Shown: positions 30,847 to 47,568 of the stretch, piece after piece
Numbering within the stretch: the first letter of the stretch is position 1
Layout of the letters: every line of letters begins with the position of its first letter
From: Planctomycetota bacterium
Lineage (GTDB): Bacteria; Planctomycetota; UBA1135; UBA2386
Reading direction: 5' to 3'
Length of the DNA stretch: 64,000 bases
Assembly: GCA_020849665.1 (NCBI GenBank)
Contig: JADLFX010000074.1
Coordinates: 1-64,000, forward strand
Made by a program: the position numbers and the translations under genes
Notes under the pieces: model-generated
The model's input: only the letters and a program-made list of their open reading frames with translations
The model's database searches: none
Told to the model about the DNA's origin: nothing

Positions 30847-32451
<1,605 letters not shown>

Positions 32452-32454
32452 GGT

Positions 32455-32772
32455 TCAGCCCTCCACCCGCGCGAGGATCTCGTTCTCGCGGATGATCTTG
32501 TAGTCCTCGCCGTCGACCTGGACGTCGCTGCCGGCGTACTTGCCGAACAGCACCGTGTCGCCCTTCTTGACGTCGGGCTTGACGCGGTTGCCGTCCTCGA
32601 GCCGGCGGCCCTCGCCCACGGCGATCACGGTGCCGCGCCCGGGCTTCTCGCGCGCGGTGTCGGGGAGCAGGATTCCGCCCGAGCTGATCTCCTCGGCGTC
32701 GAGGACGCGCACGACGATCCGGTCGTCGAGGGGGCGGATGTTCACATTGGTCTTGGTCTTGGTGTCCTTCAT
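32455..32772 (-). CDS. groES: Co-chaperonin GroES
   Basis: NIRPLDDRIVVRVLDAEEISSGGILLPDTAREKPGRGTVIAVGEG...KKGDTVLFGKYAGSDVQVDGEDYKIIRENEILARVEG. Confidence 0.97.
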   Translation of the reverse strand: MKDTKTKTNVNIRPLDDRIVVRVLDAEEISSGGILLPDTAREKPGRGTVIAVGEGRRLEDGNRVKPDVKKGDTVLFGKYAGSDVQVDGEDYKIIRENEILARVEG

Positions 32773-32810
32773 GGCATCGATACCTCTCTGGAATGCGGGG
32801 GTTGGGGCGG

Positions 32811-34448
<1,638 letters not shown>

Positions 34449-34786
34449 GGGAAAGTCGCCCTCGATCCAGGGAACGGAGGCCGTGCAGCGTTCGCGCGCG
34501 GCCGATGGGAACAGCGAACCGGCGGCGATTCCGTGGCCCACCGTGTGGCGGGGGGCTGCGCGGTATCCCGACCGGGGAAGAGGAACCCGGCGCTGTGCCG
34601 GTGGGCGCGGCCGAGGGCAAACCTCATGCCGTCGGCCCCCTGCGAGTTTCCACCTCGGGAATCAGGCTCCAAGTCCATGGGACAAAGAGGCTTGTCTGTG
34701 CTTTCCACACTCTTTCCAGAGGCCTCCACAGGCGTCACTTTGGCAGACGCCCCGCGTTCCGCTTCCGGCCCCGTTGCCACTTTGAC

Positions 34787-35995
34787 ATGAAGGCACTCCT
34801 CCTCAGTATCGGCCTCACCACGGTCTCGCTGGCCGCCCAGGAAGTGGCGGTCTCGCTCGCAGACGGCACCCTGGCCCGGGGTCGCCTGACCAAGGTGGAG
34901 GATCCGGGAGGGATCACGCTGGCCGGCACTGCGGACACCCGGGTCCTGCCGCGCGCCGGGGTCCTGGGCGTGCACGGGCCTGCCCCGCGCCTGGAGGGGG
35001 CGTCCGTGGTCGTGCACCGGCAGGATGGCGGGCGCTGGGCCGGGGACCTGCGCGGCGGGGACGCGAGCGGGGAGTCCCTGCTGGTGGGGTCCCGTTCCCT
35101 GGGCGAAGTGAGCGAGTCCGTGGATCGGATCCGCGCGATCCTGTTCCGGCGCCAGGCCGGCGAGATCTCGGTCGAGGACCTGGTCCTGCCCGAGCAGACC
35201 AAGAACGACGAAGCCTTGTTCCGGCGTGCGCGGCGCGGCGTGGACCGGATCCTGGGTGCGATCGAGCGCTTCACCCCCACGTCCGTGTACTTCCAGGTCG
35301 AGGGCGAGGCCGAGCCGCGCGAGTTCCCGTACTCGGCGCTCGTGGGCATCGCGATCCGCGGCGCGTCCGCAGGCAGCACGCCCGCGGGCGACCTGGTGAT
35401 CACGCGGGCCGGCGACGTGGTCCGCTGTCGGGTCCTCGGCCTCGATCAGGATGCCTTGCGCCTGAGCCTGGGTGAGGACCGCACGCTGCGCCTGCCGGTC
35501 GCCGAGCTGTCGTCCTGGACGCTGCTCGAGCCCGGCCGGCGCTTCCTGTCGGACCTGGAGGCGCAGGCTGTGGAGGAGGCCTCGTACTTCGAGCCCGCGG
35601 GCCGACCGCTCTTCCCGGTGCAACGGGACCACACCGTGACCGGCGGTTTCCTCGCGAGCGGCGGGCTCGCGTTCGGCAAGGGGCTCGGAGTGCACAGCCG
35701 CTCGCGCCTGCGCTTCGTCGTCCCGCCGGGGGTCCGCTGGTTCCAGGCCCTGGTCGGCGTCGACGACGAGATCCTCACGGCCGCGCCCGGGCTGCGCGGC
35801 GACGTTGACGTCCGCGTGCGGCTGGGGGACAAGGTCCTCCGCACCCAGGAGGGGCTGCGCGGTGGCATGCCCCCCGTCCACCTGGGGAATCTCGCGGTGC
35901 GGCCCGGCGACGTGCTCGCGCTGGAGGTCGAGTTCGGCAAGGGGCTCGATCTCGCGGATCGGGTCGGGTGGTATCAAGCCGTGTTCCTGCCCTGA
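34787..35995 (+). CDS. Secreted protein with C-terminal NPCBM-like carbohydrate-binding module
   Basis: Signal MKALLLSIGLTTVSLAAQ; C-term KGLGVHSRSRLRFVVPPGVRWFQALVGVDDE...VRVRLGDKVL resembles NPCBM. Confidence 0.75.
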   Translation: MKALLLSIGLTTVSLAAQEVAVSLADGTLARGRLTKVEDPGGITLAGTADTRVLPRAGVLGVHGPAPRLEGASVVVHRQDGGRWAGDLRGGDASGESLLVGSRSLGEVSESVDRIRAILFRRQAGEISVEDLVLPEQTKNDEALFRRARRGVDRILGAIERFTPTSVYFQVEGEAEPREFPYSALVGIAIRGASAGSTPAGDLVITRAGDVVRCRVLGLDQDALRLSLGEDRTLRLPVAELSSWTLLEPGRRFLSDLEAQAVEEASYFEPAGRPLFPVQRDHTVTGGFLASGGLAFGKGLGVHSRSRLRFVVPPGVRWFQALVGVDDEILTAAPGLRGDVDVRVRLGDKVLRTQEGLRGGMPPVHLGNLAVRPGDVLALEVEFGKGLDLADRVGWYQAVFLP

Positions 35996-36024
35996 CGACC
36001 ACCGGCCGTGGACGCACCGGCACC

Positions 36025-38568
36025 ATGAACTCCCTGGCCCTGACCTTCGGCGTCCTCTGTCTGGTCGCGGCCGTGCCGGGCGTGGTGCGCCGCGGCTACG
36101 GTCCCTGGACCGCGCGCATCGCCGCGCTGCTGGCCATGGGCTGCTTCGCGTGGGCGGCGCTCGACCTGCCGCGGAGCGAACGGAGCGAACTCGCGCCGCG
36201 CGTCGTGCTCCTGGCCACCGGCACGCCGGATGCGGCGTCCGAGGCGCTGGCCGCGCGCCTCGCGCGGGACCATCGGACGGTGGTCGACGTGCACGCGGCG
36301 CAGGGTGCGGTGGCCGCGCGCCTGACCGAACTCGCGCTGGTCGCCGCCCATGGACCGGAACCGCTGGAGCTCGTGGTGCAGTGGACCGCGCCGTTCCTGC
36401 CCCTCGGTCTCCCCGCCCTGGGCGACCTGCGCGTGCGCGCCGTCGCACCGCCCGACACGGCCCCGTTCGCGCTGGAGGACCTGCGCGTGCACGCGCTCGG
36501 CGCGTTCCAGGCCGGGCGGCCCGGCGCCCTCGAAGTGCGCCTGCCGGCGGTCCCCGCCGCGGTCGCGCTGGAACTCGAGGTCGCGGACCCGACCGGGGCC
36601 GTGCTGGCCAAGACCACCCACGCCCGCATCCCCGGTGCGAGCCAGCCCTGGTCGCAGGAGCTGTCGCCCCGCGTCGCGGGAGTCCACACCTTCGCGGTGC
36701 GGGCGCGCACCGGCACGTGGGCGTGCGAGGGCCGCGGGTCGTTCGCCGTCGAGGAAGCGCCGCGGGTCATGGTGTATGGCCCCGGCGCGGAGACCCTCGC
36801 CGGCGCCCTGGCGGTGCAGGGTGTCGCGGTGGCCGCGGCCCGCGCGCTGCCGCCGGACCTGAGCGGCTTCGCCGTTCTGGTGCTCACCGCGCGCCCGGCC
36901 GCCGCCGACGAGGAGCGCCTGCTGACATTCGTGGATGCGGGCGGCGGACTCTTCCTGGTGGGAGGCGAGGACGGCGGCGGCCTGCCCGAGCCCGAGCAGA
37001 CCATGGCACCGCTCTCGCCGGTGCTGCGTGTCGCGCGAGCACCCCGCCCGGACCAGGGTGCCGGTCCGGGCGAGGGCCGCGGCGAGGGCGAGGCGAAGCC
37101 GGATCCGAAGCCCGAGCCGGTCCGGCCGCCGCCGGATCCGACGCCGCAGCCCGAGTCCAGGGAGGCGCCAGGGCAGGCCCCGCCCACGGCTCCGCCGGCG
37201 AAGGGCGACACCGCCGGGGCGCGCCCCGGCCAGGGACTGGAGGAGACCGAGCGGCGCACGGTCGCGATGGCGCTGCTCATCGACCGCTCCGGCAGCATGA
37301 GCGCGGAGGTCGACGGCTCGGGTGGCCGCACGCGCATGGACTTCGCGAAGCAGAGCGCGGTGGAGACGGCAACCGCGCTCCTGCCCGGCGACGAGCTGAT
37401 GATCGTGGCGTTCGGCGAGAACCCCTCGGTGGTGCTGGGGCGCACCGAGGTGACGCGCATCACGGACCTGCGCCTGCGCATCGCGCGGCTGAATCCGGAC
37501 GAGCAGAGGACCGAGGCCGGTGCGGCGCTTGGGCTCGCGGCGGCACAGCTCGCCGGCTCGCGCGCCGCCGTCAAGCACGTGGTGATCGTGAGCGACGGCG
37601 AGATCCACGACGCCGACTACACGGCCAGCATGGCCAGGCGCGCCGCAGAACAGGGCATCACCGTCAGCGTGGTGTGGCTGCGCAGCGGTACGTCGCGCGC
37701 GGATCCCACCGCGCGCATCGCCCGGGTCGGCGGCGGCCGCTCGATCCCGTTCGACGACATCACCCAGGTGCCTCGCTTCGTCAGCTCCGAGGTGGCCAGC
37801 GTGTTCGGCAAGGTCGGCCGGCCCGCGCCTTCGGGCGAAGGCACGCCCGATCCGCGCCTGGCGCAGGCGCCGAAGCCTCCCGAACCCAGGACCGAGCCGC
37901 CCAAGCCCGAACCCGAGGAGTCCAGGCCGCGGCCGCCGGAGCCGCAGCCCCCCCGGCGCCCGGAGGAGCCGGCGGCCGCGCCCCTGGCGGTGCGCGCGCT
38001 GGCCGAGTCCGTGCTCCTCGCGCCCAGGCCCCGACCGGAGTTTCCGCCGGTGGGGGGCGTGGTCGCCAATCTGGCGCGAGCGGAGAGTCGCGTGCTCCTG
38101 GTCGCCGGCGACGAGGGCACGCCTTTGCTCGCGTTCGTGAACCGAGGCCTGGGCAAGGTCGGGGCCTGGACCGCCGACCTGCACGGCGCGTGGGGACGCG
38201 CATGGCGCGCGGACCCGGCGTTCCCGGGGCGACTGGCCCTGTGGGTGCGTGAACTCCTGCCGCCGCGCGCGACGCCGCTGCCCGGGGACCTCGTGCAGGA
38301 GCGGCGCGTGGCCGCGCCGCTGCCGACCGCGCGCGAGCGCGCCGTCCTGGCACGCCTGGCCGGCGGCGAGCCGGTCACGCCCGAGGCCTACGTGCCGCCG
38401 AGGTCGGTGACCGTCGAGCACACTCGGGGCCAGGCGGTGGAGCACGCCCGCCTCGGCCTCTTCGCGCTCTGCGCGCTCGCCTTGCTGGAGTTCCTGCTCG
38501 GGTGGCGCCTCGCGCGCCGCGCACCCGGCCCCGCGCCCGTGTCCCGCCCGGCTCGCTCCGCGGCGTGA
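36025..38568 (+). CDS. Membrane-anchored von Willebrand factor A domain protein
   Basis: N-terminal TM; MIDAS ALLIDRSGSMSAEVDG; VVIVSDGEIHDADY; Pro-rich linkers flank VWA; C-terminal TM ALCALALLEFLLGWRLARR. Confidence 0.88.
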   Translation: MNSLALTFGVLCLVAAVPGVVRRGYGPWTARIAALLAMGCFAWAALDLPRSERSELAPRVVLLATGTPDAASEALAARLARDHRTVVDVHAAQGAVAARLTELALVAAHGPEPLELVVQWTAPFLPLGLPALGDLRVRAVAPPDTAPFALEDLRVHALGAFQAGRPGALEVRLPAVPAAVALELEVADPTGAVLAKTTHARIPGASQPWSQELSPRVAGVHTFAVRARTGTWACEGRGSFAVEEAPRVMVYGPGAETLAGALAVQGVAVAAARALPPDLSGFAVLVLTARPAAADEERLLTFVDAGGGLFLVGGEDGGGLPEPEQTMAPLSPVLRVARAPRPDQGAGPGEGRGEGEAKPDPKPEPVRPPPDPTPQPESREAPGQAPPTAPPAKGDTAGARPGQGLEETERRTVAMALLIDRSGSMSAEVDGSGGRTRMDFAKQSAVETATALLPGDELMIVAFGENPSVVLGRTEVTRITDLRLRIARLNPDEQRTEAGAALGLAAAQLAGSRAAVKHVVIVSDGEIHDADYTASMARRAAEQGITVSVVWLRSGTSRADPTARIARVGGGRSIPFDDITQVPRFVSSEVASVFGKVGRPAPSGEGTPDPRLAQAPKPPEPRTEPPKPEPEESRPRPPEPQPPRRPEEPAAAPLAVRALAESVLLAPRPRPEFPPVGGVVANLARAESRVLLVAGDEGTPLLAFVNRGLGKVGAWTADLHGAWGRAWRADPAFPGRLALWVRELLPPRATPLPGDLVQERRVAAPLPTARERAVLARLAGGEPVTPEAYVPPRSVTVEHTRGQAVEHARLGLFALCALALLEFLLGWRLARRAPGPAPVSRPARSAA

Positions 38569-38575
38569 GCGCGGA

Positions 38576-39175
38576 TCAGCGGTCCTTCCGGTCCGGGGGC
38601 GTCTCCGGCGTGCTGCGCAGGTTGGTGTTGGGCTGCACGGCCGAGTGCTCGGTGGCGGGGTCCCAGTAGGTCTGTCCGAGCGCGGTCACCTGCTTGTAGC
38701 GCGTCGTGGTCGCCGAGCCGTCGGCGTGGACCCACCACTCGAGTCCGTCGGCGTCGACCACCTTGGCGATCACCGGGGGGACGCGTCCCAGGTCCGGGTC
38801 GCGCGTGGCGGGAGGTGCCGCGTTGAGGCCGTTCAGGTACGGCAGCCAGGTGCCATCGAAGAAGCCGATGCCCTTGCCCGGCTCGACCTTGGGCAGCCGC
38901 GACACGGGAATGCGGGTGCCCGGCGGCCAGGGGCTCTTCACGTGGAGGGGTTTCTCGCTCTTGCGATCGGTGGGGATGGGCAGCGGCGGCACCGGCTCCA
39001 CCTGCGGCTCCCAGCGGAACGCGGGTGCCGGGGCGCGCTCGGCCGGCGGCTGGCCGCCGGTGGGCGGAGTCGCACCCGCGGGCACTTCCGCGCCGGATTC
39101 GCGCAGGGCGAGGTACGCCCCGCCGAGGCCGGCGGCGGCGGCCAGCAGGATCCAGAGGAGCGCGCGCGGGTGCAT
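38576..39175 (-). CDS. Conserved (within-window paralogue) single-TM protein, WWVHADGSATT family, module A
   Basis: MHPRALLWILLAAAAGLGGAYLAL; PLHVKSPWPPGTRIPVSRLPKV...DGTWLPYLNGL...VVDADGLEWWVHADGSATTTRYKQV...TYWDPATEH; aligns by eye with the 45655-46251 product. Confidence 0.75.
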   Translation of the reverse strand: MHPRALLWILLAAAAGLGGAYLALRESGAEVPAGATPPTGGQPPAERAPAPAFRWEPQVEPVPPLPIPTDRKSEKPLHVKSPWPPGTRIPVSRLPKVEPGKGIGFFDGTWLPYLNGLNAAPPATRDPDLGRVPPVIAKVVDADGLEWWVHADGSATTTRYKQVTALGQTYWDPATEHSAVQPNTNLRSTPETPPDRKDR

Positions 39176-39188
39176 GCCGGGAGCGGGG

Positions 39189-40364
39189 CTACTCGACCAG
39201 GATCGATGAGGCGGTGGTGAGGGTCACGCTGGTGAACCCCGCGTTGAACACCAGGCCCTGGCACTTCAGGATCTCGCCGCGCGCCGCGAAACCCAGCGGC
39301 GGGACCGGGATCTGCGCGTTGGCGCCCGAGAAGGTGCCGCCCGCGCTGAGCGGCATCGTGATCGACGCGAGCACGTCCAGGGCCGGGAAGGTGGGATCGA
39401 GGAGCAGGTTGCCGAACGGCGTGGGAAGGCTGCCCGCGAACCAGCTGCGGCCCATGTTGATGAACACGACCGCGATGCCGGTGCTGCCCCAGTTGTTGCC
39501 GGCGCGCACGTCGAAGAAGAGGTTCCCGTTGCTGGCGCGTGACCAGTCGGAGATGCAGGCGGTGTTGCCGCGGTAGGTCTCGTTGGCGAGGCGCGGCACC
39601 TCGTAGGCGTTGGCGTGGTCGCCCGTGGCGGTGAGCACCAGCTCATTCACCAGCAGGCCGATCTTGGGCCGGTAGTTCCAGTCGCCGCCCAAGGTGATCG
39701 TGCGCGGATTGCTGCCGACCGCCCAGCCGTGGTACGGCCAGCCGCCCGGCCCTCGGCCGCCGCGCCAGTCGGACGCCACGGTCTGTCCGCCGTTGGGGTC
39801 GTCGCGCCATTCGCCGCCGCGGTACTCCACGAAGAGCAGCAGCTCGAGATCGGGCAGCGGCACGGGAGTGGTGAGGTTGAAGCTGTGCTCCACGATCGCC
39901 CACGTGCTGATCACCAGCGGCTGGTCGGCCACGTTGAGCAGGTCCTGCCCGGTCGTGGCGTGGGTGCGGTGGTAGCTGTTCTGGCCGGGCTGCGTGACGC
40001 CGATCCCGGTGCGGAACTGGTAGTGGTTCGGCGCCGGGAACGACTGCACGGCCGAGCCGGTGAACACGGCCTGGGTCATCCCGACCACCGTGAGGTAGTT
40101 GGGCGGGTTGGCCCCGGCCTGGGCGCGCAGCTTGGGCGTGTAGCTCCACGCGCGCGTCCCCGCCGCCACGCCAGGCGCCGCGGTGTAGCCGGGCGGGAGG
40201 GTCGAGGCTGCGGGATAGGGGTTGTTCGTGATCGGGTGCTTGGTGCTGGAGATGACCCGGAAGGTGTTGTTCACCGAGAGTTCGGGAACCGTGGGGTTGC
40301 CTTGCGCGGTCAGGGCCGACGCGAACGCGAGCCCGGCGAGCAGGGACGAGGAAACGCGCAGCAT
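39189..40364 (-). CDS. Secreted ~390-aa paralogue 1 (unrecognised family), module A
   Basis: MLRVSSSLLAGLAFASALTAQ signal; SFPAPNHYQFRTGI, FVEYRGGEWRDDPNGGQT, GSNPRT, FFDVRAGNNWGSTGIAVVFIN, LPTPFGNLLLDPTFP. Confidence 0.8.
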   Translation of the reverse strand: MLRVSSSLLAGLAFASALTAQGNPTVPELSVNNTFRVISSTKHPITNNPYPAASTLPPGYTAAPGVAAGTRAWSYTPKLRAQAGANPPNYLTVVGMTQAVFTGSAVQSFPAPNHYQFRTGIGVTQPGQNSYHRTHATTGQDLLNVADQPLVISTWAIVEHSFNLTTPVPLPDLELLLFVEYRGGEWRDDPNGGQTVASDWRGGRGPGGWPYHGWAVGSNPRTITLGGDWNYRPKIGLLVNELVLTATGDHANAYEVPRLANETYRGNTACISDWSRASNGNLFFDVRAGNNWGSTGIAVVFINMGRSWFAGSLPTPFGNLLLDPTFPALDVLASITMPLSAGGTFSGANAQIPVPPLGFAARGEILKCQGLVFNAGFTSVTLTTASSILVE

Positions 40365-40579
40365 GGTGCCTCCGAGAGAGAACGGGACGATCGGGCGTGC
40401 AGGCCCGGCTGGCCGCGAGGATAGCGCCGGGCCGCGGCGAATGGGGGCCGGCGCGGACGGGTGGGGCGCCGTTCCCCGTTTCCCGTCCGCGGTCGGGACG
40501 CGCCCGGCGACGCCGCCCCGCCCGCGCCGGGCGGGCGCGCGCCGCGCGCACCCGCCGCCGCGTGCGGCCCCGCGCCGCG

Positions 40580-41752
40580 TCAGTACACCAGCACCGACGA
40601 GCTCGTGGTCAGGGCAATGCTGGTGAAGCCCGCGTTGAACACCACCGCCTGCGCCTTCAGGATCTCTCCGCGCGCGGCGACACCGAGGGCGGGCACGGAG
40701 ATCTGCGCGTTGGCGCCGCTGTACGTGCCGCCTGCGGAGAGCGGCAGCGTGTTGGCCACGAAGAGGTCCAGGCCCGGGAAGGTCGGGTCGAGCAGGAAGT
40801 TGCCGAACGGCGTCCACAGGCTGCCCGGAAACCAGAGCCGGCCCATGTTGATGAACACCACCGCCGTGCCGGTGCTGCCCCAGTTGTTGCCGGCGCGCAC
40901 GTCGAAGAACAGGTTGCCGTTGGTGGCCGTGGCCCAGTCGGCATAGCACGCGGTGTTGCCGCGGTAGTTCTCGTTGGCGAGGCGCGGCGTGTAGTAGGCG
41001 TTGGCGTGGTCGCCAGTCAGGGTGAACACCGGCTCGTTCACCAGCAGCCCGATCTTGGGCCGGAAGTTCTGGTCCCCGCTCAGCAACACGGTGCGCGGGT
41101 TGTTGCCCGTCGTGTAGCCGTGGTAGACGAGGTTGCCCGGGCCGCGCCCGCCGTACCAGTCGGAGGCTATGGTCTGGCCGCCCATCGTGTCGTCCTGCCA
41201 CTCCCCGCCGCGGTACTCGACGAAGAGCACCAGCTCCAGGTCGGGCAGCGCCACCGGCGTGGTCAGGTTGAACGTGTGCTCCAGGATCGCCCAGGTGCTG
41301 ATCACCAGCGGCTGATCGGCCACGTTCAGGAGGTCCGGTCCGGTGGTGGCGTGCGTACGGTGGTACGGTCCCTGCCCGGTCTGCGAGGCCGCGATGCCGG
41401 TCCGGAACTGGTAGTGGTTCGGCGCCGGGAACGACTGCACCGCCGGGCCAGTGAACACCGCCTGCGTCATGCCGACGACCGTCAGGTAGTTGGCGCCGTA
41501 GGCGCCGGCCTGCGAGCGCAGCTTCGGCGTGTAGCTCCACGCGCGCGTGCCCGCGGCGACGCCGGGTGCGGCGGCATACCCGGGGGGCGTGGTCGGCGAG
41601 TACGGGTACGGGTTGTTGGTGATGGGGTGCTTGGCGGTCGACACCACGCGGAAGAAGTTGTTCACCGAGAGTTCGGGAACGGTGGGACCCTGGGCCGTCA
41701 ACGCGACCGTGAGAGCGAGTCCTGGGAGCAGGGAGGCAGCGACACGCAGCAT
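40580..41752 (-). CDS. Secreted ~390-aa paralogue 2 (unrecognised family)
   Basis: MLRVAASLLPGLALTVALTAQ signal; SFPAPNHYQFRTGIAASQTGQGPYHRTHATTGPDLLNVADQPLVISTWAILEHTFNLTTPVALPDLELVLFVEYRGGEW; near-identical layout to paralogue 1. Confidence 0.8.
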   Translation of the reverse strand: MLRVAASLLPGLALTVALTAQGPTVPELSVNNFFRVVSTAKHPITNNPYPYSPTTPPGYAAAPGVAAGTRAWSYTPKLRSQAGAYGANYLTVVGMTQAVFTGPAVQSFPAPNHYQFRTGIAASQTGQGPYHRTHATTGPDLLNVADQPLVISTWAILEHTFNLTTPVALPDLELVLFVEYRGGEWQDDTMGGQTIASDWYGGRGPGNLVYHGYTTGNNPRTVLLSGDQNFRPKIGLLVNEPVFTLTGDHANAYYTPRLANENYRGNTACYADWATATNGNLFFDVRAGNNWGSTGTAVVFINMGRLWFPGSLWTPFGNFLLDPTFPGLDLFVANTLPLSAGGTYSGANAQISVPALGVAARGEILKAQAVVFNAGFTSIALTTSSSVLVY

Positions 41753-41947
41753 GGTGACTCCGGGAGAGAGGGAGAGAGGCGCGGGCAGGGAAGTCCCCGC
41801 GGGCCGGGAGGATACCTCGGACCCAGCGCCGTGGGGTGTGCGGGTCCGATACGCCCAACCGTTCGCCGGGCTCCGCTGCCGGCCCGGGCCGCAGGCCTGG
41901 GCCGCATCCGGCGGTGACGCGGAGCGGGCCGGGACGGCGCCCGGGTC

Positions 41948-44047
41948 TCAGGGGCGCTCGCGCACCTTCAGGTCCTTCAGCGTGATCGTCTCGGGTCCCC
42001 AGTCGCGCCCGAAGATCCGTTCGAAGCGGAGCATCGAGGGGAGCAGGTGGTTGCCCACCTTGGTCAGGGTGACCTTGACGGTCTCGGTCCAGCGTTCCTG
42101 GCTCCGGCTCCCCGCGGTTCCGAGCGTCGATTCGATGCGCGTCACCGCCATGCGCCCGTCGATCCGTTCATAGGTGAAGCGCGTCGTTGCGTCCCTGGTG
42201 CTCCAGCCGCGCACCAGTCCCCCCTCGCCCTGCACCTCGAGCACCGGGCCGTTCTCGATGCGGAACGTCCCCGTCGCGTCCGCGGCGTGGATCGTTGCTC
42301 CTGCGAAGAACGACTCGAAGGTGGCGCGGTCGTTGAAATCGCGCGAGTGCCACATCAGCAGCCGGTCGCGGAACGCGGCGCCCAGGGCCATCTCGACCTC
42401 GGGGGGCAGCCTGCCTTCGCATTCGAGGTGCAGGGCCTGCAGATGCCGTCCGATCCCGGTCATCGTCACGGTGCCCTTCACCCTCTTCTGGCGGAGCCAG
42501 ATCAGGTCGGAACCCGGATGGGTCACCTCGAACCCCGCCGCGATCTCGATCGGCGCCTCCGGCAGGCGGTACGCGGTGTCCCAGAGCGCGCGCAGGGCAG
42601 CGGCGCCCTCGCCGGTGGGGGCGCGCACGGCCACCGCGCCCTGGCCGTCGAAGCGCAGATCGGAGAGGGCGAGCTCGCTGGCCGAGAAGAGCTTGTCGCC
42701 GAACGCCGTCGTGCTGGTGCTGCCTGCGGGTACCTGGAGCCCATCCTGCTCGCGGTACCGGAACGTGGTCCGCTGCGAGCTGGAACGAAGTTGGGTGACC
42801 AGGTAGCCGCGGCCGGTCTCCTGCACCTGCCACGTGGTGCGTGGGCCGTCGCCGGTCCCTTCGCCGACGATCCTGTCCTCCGCCACCTGGTAGTCGACAT
42901 GGAGCCCGATGTGCGTCCCGGCGCCGGTCGTGGACATCGGCGCCGCGACGGACGGATCCAGCCATCCGGGACCCTGCACCTCGACGCGATCCGCGGCCAC
43001 CTCGCCGAGCCGGTTGCGTGCCGCGAAGGTCGCGAAGTCCGGCCGGCGCACCTGTTCGAATGCCGAGGCGATCGCCGATGCGGCGTTCGCACCCTGGCCC
43101 GAATCGATCTCGACCCGGACCGGCCCCTTCGCCGGGAGGGTGAAGCGCCCGGTCACGGCGTGGTCCTCGTACTCGCTGCTCGAGTTCAGCTTCTGGCGGC
43201 GTTCTCGGAAGGCGAACCTGCCGCTCACCGCGGTGGCCGCGTCGGGCCAGCGGTACCAGCGCTCGTAGGCGGGACGGAGCCGCCTGGCGCCTGCCTCGGG
43301 ATCCGCCCTGCCGACCAGGCTCCAGTCGGCGAGTTGGAATGCCGTTGCCTTCAGGGCCGAGGCCGGTGCCGCTTCGGCGTCGAGGTAGGCGCGCGGGCCG
43401 GCTCGCCCGGCCAGCACCCAGGGCAGGGTCGCTCCCGCGGGCACGCGCACCCCCATCAGCTCGGTCAGATCCGCGGGCTGGGCCAGGGTGACCAGCAGGA
43501 GCACGTCCAGGTCCCGGTCGAACGGGTTGGTGAGCTCGATCTGGGTGACCGGGAAGGTCCCGACCATGGAGGTGCGCTGCACCGTCGTGGGGCGGGAGAT
43601 CTTCAATCCCGGCCGCGCCACCTCGACCGGTCCGTGCCACGCCGCGCTGAGCACGCGCACGGCGTACTGCGCCGGCGTGCCGTGCAGCGCAGTGCCGAGC
43701 GTGTAGACCTGCTTGCCGCCGGGGGGCGCCCCGCGTCCGTAGCGGCGCACGAGCGGCAGCTGCACGCGGCGGAAGGTCTCCGCGCGCGGAGCTGCGCCGC
43801 CCCGCTCGCGCAGCTCGATCCCGAACTCCAGCGGCTCCGCGGTGGCCGTGCCACGATTGTGGACCTCCACGAGCAGGAGCTGCGAGAACTTGTCGACCGC
43901 GCGCACGCCGGCCACGCGGCACTCCAGTCGGGCGACGTCGCCGGTCAGGAACTCGGGCTCGCGCGGCTGCTCCTGGGCAGATGCCGCCCCGGCGCCGGCG
44001 AGCCAGAGGGAGGAGAAAAGGGCGCGCGCGAGTCGGATCCGGGTCAT
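41948..44047 (-). CDS. Large secreted protein of unknown function
   Basis: Signal MTRIRLARALFSSLWLAGAGAASAQ; 700-aa intact ORF, no recognised domain. Confidence 0.7.
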   Translation of the reverse strand: MTRIRLARALFSSLWLAGAGAASAQEQPREPEFLTGDVARLECRVAGVRAVDKFSQLLLVEVHNRGTATAEPLEFGIELRERGGAAPRAETFRRVQLPLVRRYGRGAPPGGKQVYTLGTALHGTPAQYAVRVLSAAWHGPVEVARPGLKISRPTTVQRTSMVGTFPVTQIELTNPFDRDLDVLLLVTLAQPADLTELMGVRVPAGATLPWVLAGRAGPRAYLDAEAAPASALKATAFQLADWSLVGRADPEAGARRLRPAYERWYRWPDAATAVSGRFAFRERRQKLNSSSEYEDHAVTGRFTLPAKGPVRVEIDSGQGANAASAIASAFEQVRRPDFATFAARNRLGEVAADRVEVQGPGWLDPSVAAPMSTTGAGTHIGLHVDYQVAEDRIVGEGTGDGPRTTWQVQETGRGYLVTQLRSSSQRTTFRYREQDGLQVPAGSTSTTAFGDKLFSASELALSDLRFDGQGAVAVRAPTGEGAAALRALWDTAYRLPEAPIEIAAGFEVTHPGSDLIWLRQKRVKGTVTMTGIGRHLQALHLECEGRLPPEVEMALGAAFRDRLLMWHSRDFNDRATFESFFAGATIHAADATGTFRIENGPVLEVQGEGGLVRGWSTRDATTRFTYERIDGRMAVTRIESTLGTAGSRSQERWTETVKVTLTKVGNHLLPSMLRFERIFGRDWGPETITLKDLKVRERP

Positions 44048-44307
44048 GGGCGGTTCTCCATGGCAGGTGCGGGGCGGAGGTGCCGCGCCGGGTAGTCCTG
44101 GAGCCGTGCCGCGCAACCACGGGGCTCGACCAGGGAACCCTCCCCTGGACCCTGGCCACGCAGGTCGTGGAGCCTCTTCCCCGAGGACGTGCCGGGCGGC
44201 GCCATACCCAGGGATGGCGGTTCCTCCGATGCGGGCGGCCAGGGTCCTGCGCAGGCCTGCGGCGCCGGGCGCGACCATGGCGGTCGCGGCCCGGCCTCCC
44301 CCCGCGC

Positions 44308-45474
44308 TCACTGGATCAGGATCGTCGTGGCAGACGTCAGCGCCATGTTGGCGAACCCGGCGTTGAACACCAGCGCCTGCGCCTTCACGAACTGGCCTCG
44401 GGCCGTGGGGCCGAGGGTGGGGATGGCGACGCGGTTGGCCTCGCCCTGGTTGTAGACGCCGCCCGCGCTCAGGGTCAGCACGTTGCCGACGAAGAGCGTC
44501 AGGAACGGGTCGGTGGGGTCGAGGAGCAGGCCGCCCCACGGCGTGGGCACCTTCCCCGCGAACCAGTTCACGCTCCCGTTCAGGAACACCACGGCCGAAC
44601 CCGTGCTGCCGTAGGTGTTGCCCGCGCGCACGTCGAACCACAGCGAGCCCTGGGTCGACGTGGCCCAGTCGGCCCAGCAGGCCCCGAGACCGCGGTGGAA
44701 CTCGCTGGCGAGCGGCGGGCTGATGTAGCTGTTGCTGTGGTATCCGGTGGCCGTGAGGATCGGCTCCTGCACGAGGAACCCGAGCTTCGGCCGGAACAGG
44801 CTGCCGCTGCTGAGCCCCACGGTGCGCGGGTTGCTGCCGGTCGTGTAGCCGCAGTACACGAGGCCGCCGGGGCCGTAGCCGCCGTAGTAGTCGCAGGCCA
44901 TGGTCTGTCCGCCCTGCGGGTCGTCCCGGTACTCGCCGCCGCGGTACTCGGCGAAGAGCAGGAGGTCGACGTCGGGGATCGCCACCGGCGTCGCCAGCGT
45001 CGTGCTGATGTCGAACACCGGCCCGTTGGGGATCGCCACCGGCGCGTCCGCGACGACCAGGAGGTCTGCGCCGCTGGGCGCATGCGTCCGGTGGTAGGGA
45101 CCCTGGCCTGGCTGCGACGGGGCGATGCCCATCTTCATCTGGTAGTGGTTCGGCGCCGGGAACGTGGCCACCGCGGCGCCCACGCGCACCGACTGCAGGA
45201 TGCCCGTGACGGTGAAGTAGTTGGCGCCCTGGTGGCCCTGCTGCGCGCGCAGCTTGGGCGTGTGGGTCCACAGGCGCGTGCCGGCCGCGACGCCGGGGGG
45301 CGTGGCCGAGTCGTAGCCCGGCGGCACGGTGGGCGAGTAGGGGTAGTAGTTGCCCGTGCCCGGGTGCTGGAGCGTCGAGCGGACCGTGCGCGTGTTGTTC
45401 ACGACGAGCTCGGCGTCCTGGGCGAAGAGGGAGCTGGCGAGCACGGCGCTCGCGAGGAGCAATGGCATGTGCAT
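44308..45474 (-). CDS. Secreted ~390-aa paralogue 3 (unrecognised family)
   Basis: MHMPLLLASAVLASSLFAQ signal; FPAPNHYQMKMGIAPSQPGQGPYHRTHAPSGADLLVVADAPVAIP, FAEYRGGEYRDDPQGGQT, WFDVRAGNTYGSTGSAVVFLN, VPTPWGGLLLDPTDP. Confidence 0.8.
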   Translation of the reverse strand: MHMPLLLASAVLASSLFAQDAELVVNNTRTVRSTLQHPGTGNYYPYSPTVPPGYDSATPPGVAAGTRLWTHTPKLRAQQGHQGANYFTVTGILQSVRVGAAVATFPAPNHYQMKMGIAPSQPGQGPYHRTHAPSGADLLVVADAPVAIPNGPVFDISTTLATPVAIPDVDLLLFAEYRGGEYRDDPQGGQTMACDYYGGYGPGGLVYCGYTTGSNPRTVGLSSGSLFRPKLGFLVQEPILTATGYHSNSYISPPLASEFHRGLGACWADWATSTQGSLWFDVRAGNTYGSTGSAVVFLNGSVNWFAGKVPTPWGGLLLDPTDPFLTLFVGNVLTLSAGGVYNQGEANRVAIPTLGPTARGQFVKAQALVFNAGFANMALTSATTILIQ

Positions 45475-45654
45475 GGCGTTTGGCGGTGGAGGCAGGCGGG
45501 CCTGTGCACCGGCGGAGGAGCGCCGGCGTCCGGCCCGTGGACGGGCGCAGGATACCGCGTCACGCGGCGGCGGTGGGCCGGTCCCCGTGGACGGCCCGGA
45601 CCGGCGGCGGGCGGGGGCCGGGCGCGTACGGACGGCGGCGGTGCGCGGGTGCTC

Positions 45655-46251
45655 CTACCGCGCGCCGGGTCGGGTGCCCGGCTCCCCGGGCGGGAGGATC
45701 TCCGAGGCGGGTTGCGGCGTGCCGTGGCGCGTGGCGGGGTCCCAGTAGGTGTCGTTGCCGACGCTCACCTGGTGATAGCAGGAGGTCGTGGCCGAGCCGT
45801 CCGCGTGCACCCACCACTCCAGCCCCGCGGCGTCGACGAACTTCTCGACCACCGGCGGCACGGGTCCGCGCGCGGGGTCCCGGTGCAGCTTCGGGGCCCA
45901 GGTCATCCCGTTCAGGAAGGGCAGGAAGGTGCCATCGGGCAGCGGGATCCCGTTGTCGACGCGCGGGAGCGAACGCACGGGGATCCGCGTGCCGGGTGGA
46001 TGGGGGGAGCGCACGTGCAGCGCGCTGGGCGCGCGCGTGCTGGTCAGGAACGCCACGGGCGGCACGGCGACGGCGGGGGCCTCGGCCGTGATCGGCTGCG
46101 TCGCGGGTGCCGGCCGCGTGGCGGCGGGAGGCGGGGGCGCAGGCGCGGGCGGGAGGTCCGCCGCGCGCCCCCACCACAGCGCCGCGCCCCCGGCCGCCGC
46201 CAGCGCGACGCAGCCGAGGAGCACGGCCGGGACCTTGGGTGCCCCGCTCAC
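45655..46251 (-). CDS. Conserved (within-window paralogue) single-TM protein, WWVHADGSATT family, module B (GTG start)
   Basis: SGAPKVPAVLLGCVALAAAGGAALWWG TM; ALHVRSPHPPGTRIPVRSLPRV...DGTFLPFLNGM...FVDAAGLEWWVHADGSATTSCYHQV...TYWDPATRH; 4-bp overlap with 46248. Confidence 0.72.
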   Translation of the reverse strand: MSGAPKVPAVLLGCVALAAAGGAALWWGRAADLPPAPAPPPPAATRPAPATQPITAEAPAVAVPPVAFLTSTRAPSALHVRSPHPPGTRIPVRSLPRVDNGIPLPDGTFLPFLNGMTWAPKLHRDPARGPVPPVVEKFVDAAGLEWWVHADGSATTSCYHQVSVGNDTYWDPATRHGTPQPASEILPPGEPGTRPGAR

Positions 46252-47414
46252 TCCACGAGGATCGCCGCGGCGCCGGTCAGCGTCAGGTTGGTGAAGCCCT
46301 GGTTGAAGACGATGGCCTGCACCTTCAGGACGTTCCCGCGCGCGCTGGCACCGAGCGCCGGGACCGCGATCGCCTGGCTCTCGCCGCTGTAGGTGCCGCC
46401 TGCCGAGAGGGTCAGCGGGATCCCCACGAAGAGGTCGAAGTACGGGTCGACCGGCGAGAGGAAGAGGCTGCCCCACGGCGTGGGCAGCGCGCCCTGGAAC
46501 CAGCCGTTGTTGGCGAACACCACCGCGGTGCCCGTGCTGCCGAACTGGCCGCCGGCGCGCACGTCGAACCAGAGCGAACCCTGGGTCGAGGTGCTGTAGT
46601 CGGCCGCGCACGCCGCGATGCCGCGGTAGTACTCGCCGGTGAGCCGTGGCGTGTAGTAGCGGTTGGCGTGGTAGCCGGTGGCGGTGAGGACGGGTTCCTT
46701 GACGAGGAGCCCCATCTTGGGCCGATAGTCCGGCTCGCCCGAGTAGACCACCGTGCGCGGGTTGCTGCCCGTGGTGTAGCCGCAGTAGGCCAGCGCGCCC
46801 GGGCCCTTGCCGCCCTGGTAGTCGCAGCCCGCGGTCTGCCCGCCCAGCGGGTCGTCCCAGTACTCGCCGCCGCGGTACTCCAGGAAGAAGCACAGCTCCA
46901 CGTCCTGCATCGGCACCGGCGTGGCGAGCGTCGTGCTGATCTCCCAGATCGGCCCGTTGGGGATCACCGTCGGGGCGTCGGCGACGCTGAAGAGATCCGC
47001 GCCGGTCGGCGCGTGCTGGCGCTGGTAGGCGCCGGTGCCGGGCACCGTTGGCGCGATGCCGCACTTGAACTGGTAGTGGTTGGGCGCCGGGAACGAGGCC
47101 ACGGCCGGACCCACGTAGATCGACTGCGTGATGCCCGAGATCGTGAGGAAGTTCGGTCCGAGCTGGCCCGCCTGGTAGCGGAACTTCGGCGTGTAGGTCC
47201 ACAGGCGGGTGCCCGCGGCCACGCCGGGGGGCGTGGCGCTGGCGTAGCCGGGCGGCGTGGTCGGCGAGTACGGGTAGTAGTTGCCCGTGCCGGGGTGCTG
47301 GCCGGTGGAGCGCACGCGGAAGAAGTTGTTGACCGCGAGTTCGGGGTCCTGGGCGGAGAGTGCTGCGGCCAGGCTGGCGAAGGCGACCAGCGCCGCGAGA
47401 GAGGGAGCTTGCAT
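46248..47414 (-). CDS. Secreted ~390-aa paralogue 4 (unrecognised family), module B
   Basis: MQAPSLAALVAFASLAAALSAQ signal; SFPAPNHYQFKCGIAPTVPGTGAYQRQHAPTGADLFSVADAPTVIPNGPIWEISTTLATPVPMQDVELCFFLEYRGGEYWDDPLGGQT, WFDVRAGGQFGSTGTAVVFANN. Confidence 0.8.
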   Translation of the reverse strand: MQAPSLAALVAFASLAAALSAQDPELAVNNFFRVRSTGQHPGTGNYYPYSPTTPPGYASATPPGVAAGTRLWTYTPKFRYQAGQLGPNFLTISGITQSIYVGPAVASFPAPNHYQFKCGIAPTVPGTGAYQRQHAPTGADLFSVADAPTVIPNGPIWEISTTLATPVPMQDVELCFFLEYRGGEYWDDPLGGQTAGCDYQGGKGPGALAYCGYTTGSNPRTVVYSGEPDYRPKMGLLVKEPVLTATGYHANRYYTPRLTGEYYRGIAACAADYSTSTQGSLWFDVRAGGQFGSTGTAVVFANNGWFQGALPTPWGSLFLSPVDPYFDLFVGIPLTLSAGGTYSGESQAIAVPALGASARGNVLKVQAIVFNQGFTNLTLTGAAAILVE

Positions 47415-47568
47415 GGGAGTTCCTGGGTTGCGGGACGCGCCGCAGCATAGCGCACGCCGCGCCGCCGGCTTGGGGCCCGCGCCGCCGCCGCGCACGGGCC
47501 CGGGCGCGCGGTGCTCCCCCGGAACCCGCCCGCGCCGTAGATTGCCGGACCCCTCCCCGAGGCCCAAC

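Follow-up and report, generated by a model that had tools for sequence, protein, structure and literature searches.

The L and S gene cluster

The window, by which we mean the whole 64-kb stretch of DNA that was analysed, carries a minus-strand gene cluster that reads L4-S2-L3-(699-aa gene)-L2-L1-S1 in the order of transcription. Its features are as follows.

38576..39175, minus strand: S1, 199 aa, with an N-terminal hydrophobic anchor, a linker and a conserved C-terminal domain
38642..38950, minus strand: S1 conserved domain region, PDGT-type..LNG....WWVHADGS
39189..40364, minus strand: L1, a secreted 391-aa protein with a C-terminal module at about 39198-39515
40417..40424, minus strand: STATSCTS, candidate -10 element before L1 (pattern chosen after inspection)
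40580..41752, minus strand: L2, a secreted 390-aa protein whose nearest paralogue is L1
41808..41815, minus strand: STATSCTS, candidate -10 element before L2 (pattern chosen after inspection)
41948..44047, minus strand: unrelated secreted 699-aa protein between L2 and L3
44308..45474, minus strand: L3, a secreted 388-aa protein
45548..45555, minus strand: STATSCTS, candidate -10 element before L3 (pattern chosen after inspection)
45655..46251, minus strand: S2, 198 aa, with a GTG start
45721..46023, minus strand: S2 conserved domain region, modelled as a five-strand beta meander with low-to-moderate confidence
46248..47414, minus strand: L4, a secreted 388-aa protein
47443..47450, minus strand: STATSCTS, candidate -10 element before L4 (pattern chosen after inspection)

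An earlier note on this DNA had described the four L genes as a cluster of paralogous secreted proteins of no recognised family. A codon-usage gene caller, which had L1-L4 among its training genes, returns the four reading frames with the same starts and ends as that note and refuses the frames that overlap them. Each protein opens with a hydrophobic signal sequence ending in ..AQ, and the four align over their full length (55-79% identity to L1), with the motifs listed in the note falling among many invariant columns. The absence of a recognised family was borne out by Pfam, NCBIfam, PHROGs, PADLOC and the PDB: L1-L4 have nothing in Pfam and NCBIfam even at E 10, nothing in PHROGs and PADLOC at E 0.1, and no credible match in a profile search of the PDB. 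The description stands as that of a paralogous secreted set, which belongs to a wider range of secreted proteins associated with S; the two S partner genes, the 699-aa gene and two diverged L genes elsewhere in the genome had been overlooked.

The proposal that the L genes arose by nested duplication is well founded for L1 and L2 (79% identity, tree support 100/100) and uncertain for L3 and L4 (about 65%). The split between {L1,L2} and {L3,L4} is solid in the tree; full nesting is unproven because L4 groups weakly with L1 and L2 (82/85) once outside members are included. Values of dN/dS among the copies run from 0.27 to 0.79. Every L pair has a dS of about 0.5-0.6, as though GC3 bias had saturated the synonymous sites, and constraint is therefore suggested for L1/L2 only. 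An AlphaFold model built from the four window paralogues was almost all strand with a pLDDT of 30 and was discarded. The beta-rich extracellular domain that the earlier note proposed for L is plausible as a prediction. Two diverged L genes lie elsewhere in the same genome, on contig 31: the one at 82.2 kb is followed by an S gene, and the one at 54.9 kb is not. One of two secretin genes is about 1 kb away from the latter copy, and the surrounding stretch (54.9-68.1 kb) also holds ExbB/ExbD-like and TPR-like genes.

S1 and S2 are themselves paralogous, with an identity of 49-51% overall and 64% in the conserved domain. S1 starts 13 nt past the L1 stop codon. L4 and S2 share the bases GTGA (46248-46251), in which GTG is the start codon of S2 and TGA the stop codon of L4; this overlap suggests that the two are translationally coupled. 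The layout of S proteins is a short N-terminus, one hydrophobic segment, a Pro/Ala-rich linker and a conserved domain, about 75 residues long, with the consensus PDGT..LNG...WYVHADGS. By hydropathy, 29/35 unfused S calls have the hydrophobic N-terminus and the remainder look like late start calls; a lipobox occurs in one case. A two-sequence AlphaFold model of the S domain gives a five-strand meander (pLDDT 60 overall, about 61-76 at model residues 51-90), for which a fold search of the PDB returned no match below E 0.6, and S has no family match in Pfam.

The 699-aa protein likewise has no family match; its nearest homologues, found in related genera, are 42-49% identical. We considered this gene as a component of the L-S module and rejected it: its homologues are conserved in the order but sit in unrelated neighbourhoods, and the gene is therefore probably outside the module. 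On the two strands of the 64 kb the octamer STATSCTS has four occurrences, one upstream of each L gene, and none of 51 other window genes has the core TATSCT upstream. Because the pattern was picked post hoc and a standard sigma-70 scan found nothing, the idea that each L gene has its own transcription start is only a lead.

Linkage of S to secreted genes across the order

We next consider the distribution of these families in genome-wide searches of 154 genomes of the order. L-type proteins with strong scores occur in 4/154 genomes, and S, the constant element, occurs at 70 well-supported sites in 33/154. Outside the order, matches within the phylum span the anchor and linker only. Relatives were also sought in genome contigs (two scans), viral contigs, plasmids and phages, and none was found. 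The neighbourhood set comprised 40 S loci, the window and three stretches of the window genome, with 434 genes called.

Most S genes are accompanied by a second secreted set, T, which bears a TSRG motif. An L or T gene lies within 2 kb of 47/70 S sites, a count to be read with the caveat that S loci supplied the seeds of the T profile; by our own arithmetic, 118 L/T sites spread by chance over 35 genomes of about 5 Mb would give about 0.3. L/T genes are present in every S-bearing genome, 62 of the 118 L/T sites are away from S, and none of 189 control genes at least three positions from S is an L/T gene. L/T then S on one strand is the layout seen most often (27 sites), with S then L/T on one strand at 5, divergent genes at 9 and convergent genes at 6. 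Given this variety of layouts, the linkage is not accounted for by a single ancestral operon. Start/stop overlaps recur at 46248-46251 in the window and at loci L057, L058, L061 and L088. Distances among S proteins correlate with those among their L/T neighbours (Mantel r 0.72, 0/5000 permutations), a correlation for which species phylogeny may account in part. Mean identity is 41% for the S domain and 21% for L/T, with the S domain higher in 98% of comparisons.

The pairing is not one to one. The window has two S genes for four L genes, and L3 has an S gene only upstream (180 nt); the L copy at 54.9 kb on contig 31 has no S gene, and 23/70 S sites have no L/T gene within 2 kb. S genes that have no L/T neighbour form a group of their own in genomes of one family (loci L069, L070, L072, L085, L086 and L090); at L072, L085, L086 and L090, S is divergent to NADH dehydrogenase (nuoA-like) genes. 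At two further loci the S domain is part of a larger protein, ending a DUF7133 protein that is cut by the contig end (L071, 3669-5465) and lying within a Sortilin/BNR protein (L096, 4473-8090).

A C-terminal module shared by L, T and other secreted proteins

Aligned over their full length, the profiles of L and T score E 4.9e-8; shuffled or reversed controls score 0.4-0.9. When the profiles were split, the C-terminal ~115 residues held the signal (E 1.3e-5) and the N-terminal part gave E 0.018; full-length homology of L and T was rejected, as the signal is confined to the C-terminal part. An iterated search from T C-termini alone recovers all ten L proteins, together with three secreted or repeat-type proteins that are convergent to S at loci L080, L081 and L089 (the last an FG-GAP protein by Pfam) and carry the same module.

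The module, of about 100 aa, is widespread in the window genome: the C-terminal profile has 38 matches there at E 0.01, on many contigs, six of which are the L proteins. We examined 27 of the non-L matches: the majority reach to about 18 aa or less from the stop codon, and signal peptides are present in most of the proteins; the carriers include ELWxxDGT, kelch, DNRLRE and choice-of-anchor V proteins. The T C-terminus matches the generic module strongly (E 4.5e-9) and the L C-terminus (~110 residues) weakly (E 4e-4). No Pfam or NCBIfam model covers the module in the proteins scanned.

Shared by many signal-peptide proteins that are otherwise unrelated, and placed at their very C-terminus, the module resembles sorting domains of the PEP-CTERM, MYXO-CTERM and T9SS type, a likeness to which the choice-of-anchor V and ELWxxDGT domains of some carriers add. 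In contrast to these domains, it is about 100 residues long and lacks a terminal transmembrane helix and basic tail in the sequences seen, and neither L nor T nor any of nine proteins that carry the module matches the PEP-CTERM, MYXO-CTERM and T9SS models at the C-terminus. In other bacteria, domains such as those of the module carriers are followed by other anchors; our literature search found no text on this. As judged from sequence, the module is a candidate sorting or anchoring domain, and we regard it as a more novel lead than the S-L pair.

S as a putative envelope-anchored partner of L

S usually lies beside L/T-type secreted genes, which suggests that S holds a secreted protein or helps its export. 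Our preferred reading, at a rough probability of 0.45, is that S is an envelope-anchored partner, a chaperone or a tether, of secreted L. L1-L4 and S1-S2 would then represent a secretion unit of two genes that has been amplified. L would be exported by the Sec pathway and is probably beta-rich, with a unit-specific N-terminal region joined to the C-terminal module common to secreted proteins of the lineage. The N-terminal anchor would fix S in the cell envelope, and the conserved domain, carried on the Pro/Ala-rich linker, would reach the exported L; there S might either aid the folding and exit of L, in the way that foldases serve substrates of type II secretion, or retain L at the surface. 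The gene structure, the start/stop overlap, the conserved neighbourhood, the conservation of S and the common C-terminal module are observed; the topology of S, its direct binding to L and its role as chaperone or tether are what we infer from them. An outer-membrane exit exists, because the window genome has five secretins (counted whether of the type II or the pilus kind).

Chaperones that are anchored at the N-terminus and whose genes adjoin that of the secreted client form a known class (PMC4713064; Lif, PMC7046727). As in Lif/LipH-LipA and CpaB-CpaA, the gene for the secreted protein adjoins one for an N-terminally anchored protein (47/70 S sites, together with S1 and S2 in the window; transmembrane segment by hydropathy in 29 of the 35 unfused calls), the C-terminal domain lies beyond the membrane (as predicted for S), in Lif after a variable linker, and the gene spacing is short or negative. 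Unlike Lif, which is all alpha helix, the S domain is predicted to be beta strands; S also differs from Lif and CpaB in matching no Pfam family and in its uneven pairing with L. Membership of S in the Lif foldase family was rejected, as Pfam gave no match and the NCBIfam lipase secretion chaperone model gave E 0.29 in 1/25 S, at chance level. We therefore describe S-L, by analogy, as organised like lipase-foldase pairs, since S does not belong by sequence to the membrane-associated chaperones. S also resembles TonB and VirB10-like envelope-spanning proteins in having an N-terminal anchor, a Pro-rich linker and a C-terminal domain, but its weak PDB matches to them span the anchor and linker only and the NCBIfam matches are near chance. 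L and S are in our view new families in a plausible known arrangement, and we found no paper on the L, S or T families.

Other readings fit parts of these data. L may be secreted either as an enzyme or to bind a polymer; S would then be a co-expressed accessory domain that binds the same substrate, and the two proteins would not need to touch. The S domains in the DUF7133 and Sortilin/BNR proteins speak for such a role, as do the extracellular repeat domains of other module carriers, but no catalytic-type residue set is conserved across both L and T and there is no Pfam or PDB match at all, and we consider this account rather unlikely. A toxin-immunity pair, in which L would be exported as an antibacterial and S, anchored in the membrane, would confer immunity to it, would share the two-gene unit, the paralogous amplification and the combination of a secreted protein with an anchored partner. 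We give it very little credence: S evolves slower than L, its domain also occurs within enzyme-like proteins, and no toxin, immunity or defence family gives a credible match (a weak Imm17 match, E 0.12, in 1/25 S).

The order-wide C-terminal module may itself be the sorting or anchoring signal, with S as the receptor for some carriers. The position of most of the 27 matches just before the stop codon, the signal peptides of most carriers, domains such as choice-of-anchor V, and the further module-bearing secreted proteins that S adjoins all point this way; against it stand the 38 module matches in the window genome versus only 3 S genes and the weakness with which the C-terminus of L is tied to the generic module, strong as the tie of T is. 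We find this reading doubtful. In a broader form, the undescribed module would mark dozens of secreted proteins per genome, with S proteins as dedicated envelope receptors or foldases for a subset; the four L would be an amplified example of the S-served subset in such an export-and-anchoring system of the order's own, a view to which we assign a low probability.

The S-L pairing gives a testable partner, and the common C-terminal module could explain the sorting of many unannotated proteins together. The two offer an initial way into the question of how a little-studied, high-GC bacterial order deals with its many unnamed secreted proteins.

The window also holds, at 30847-34541, two different groEL genes and one groES gene side by side, with one GroEL bearing a His-rich tail. 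At 34787-38568 it encodes NPCBM-domain and VWA-domain proteins, and the VWA gene converges on the cluster at its S1 end.
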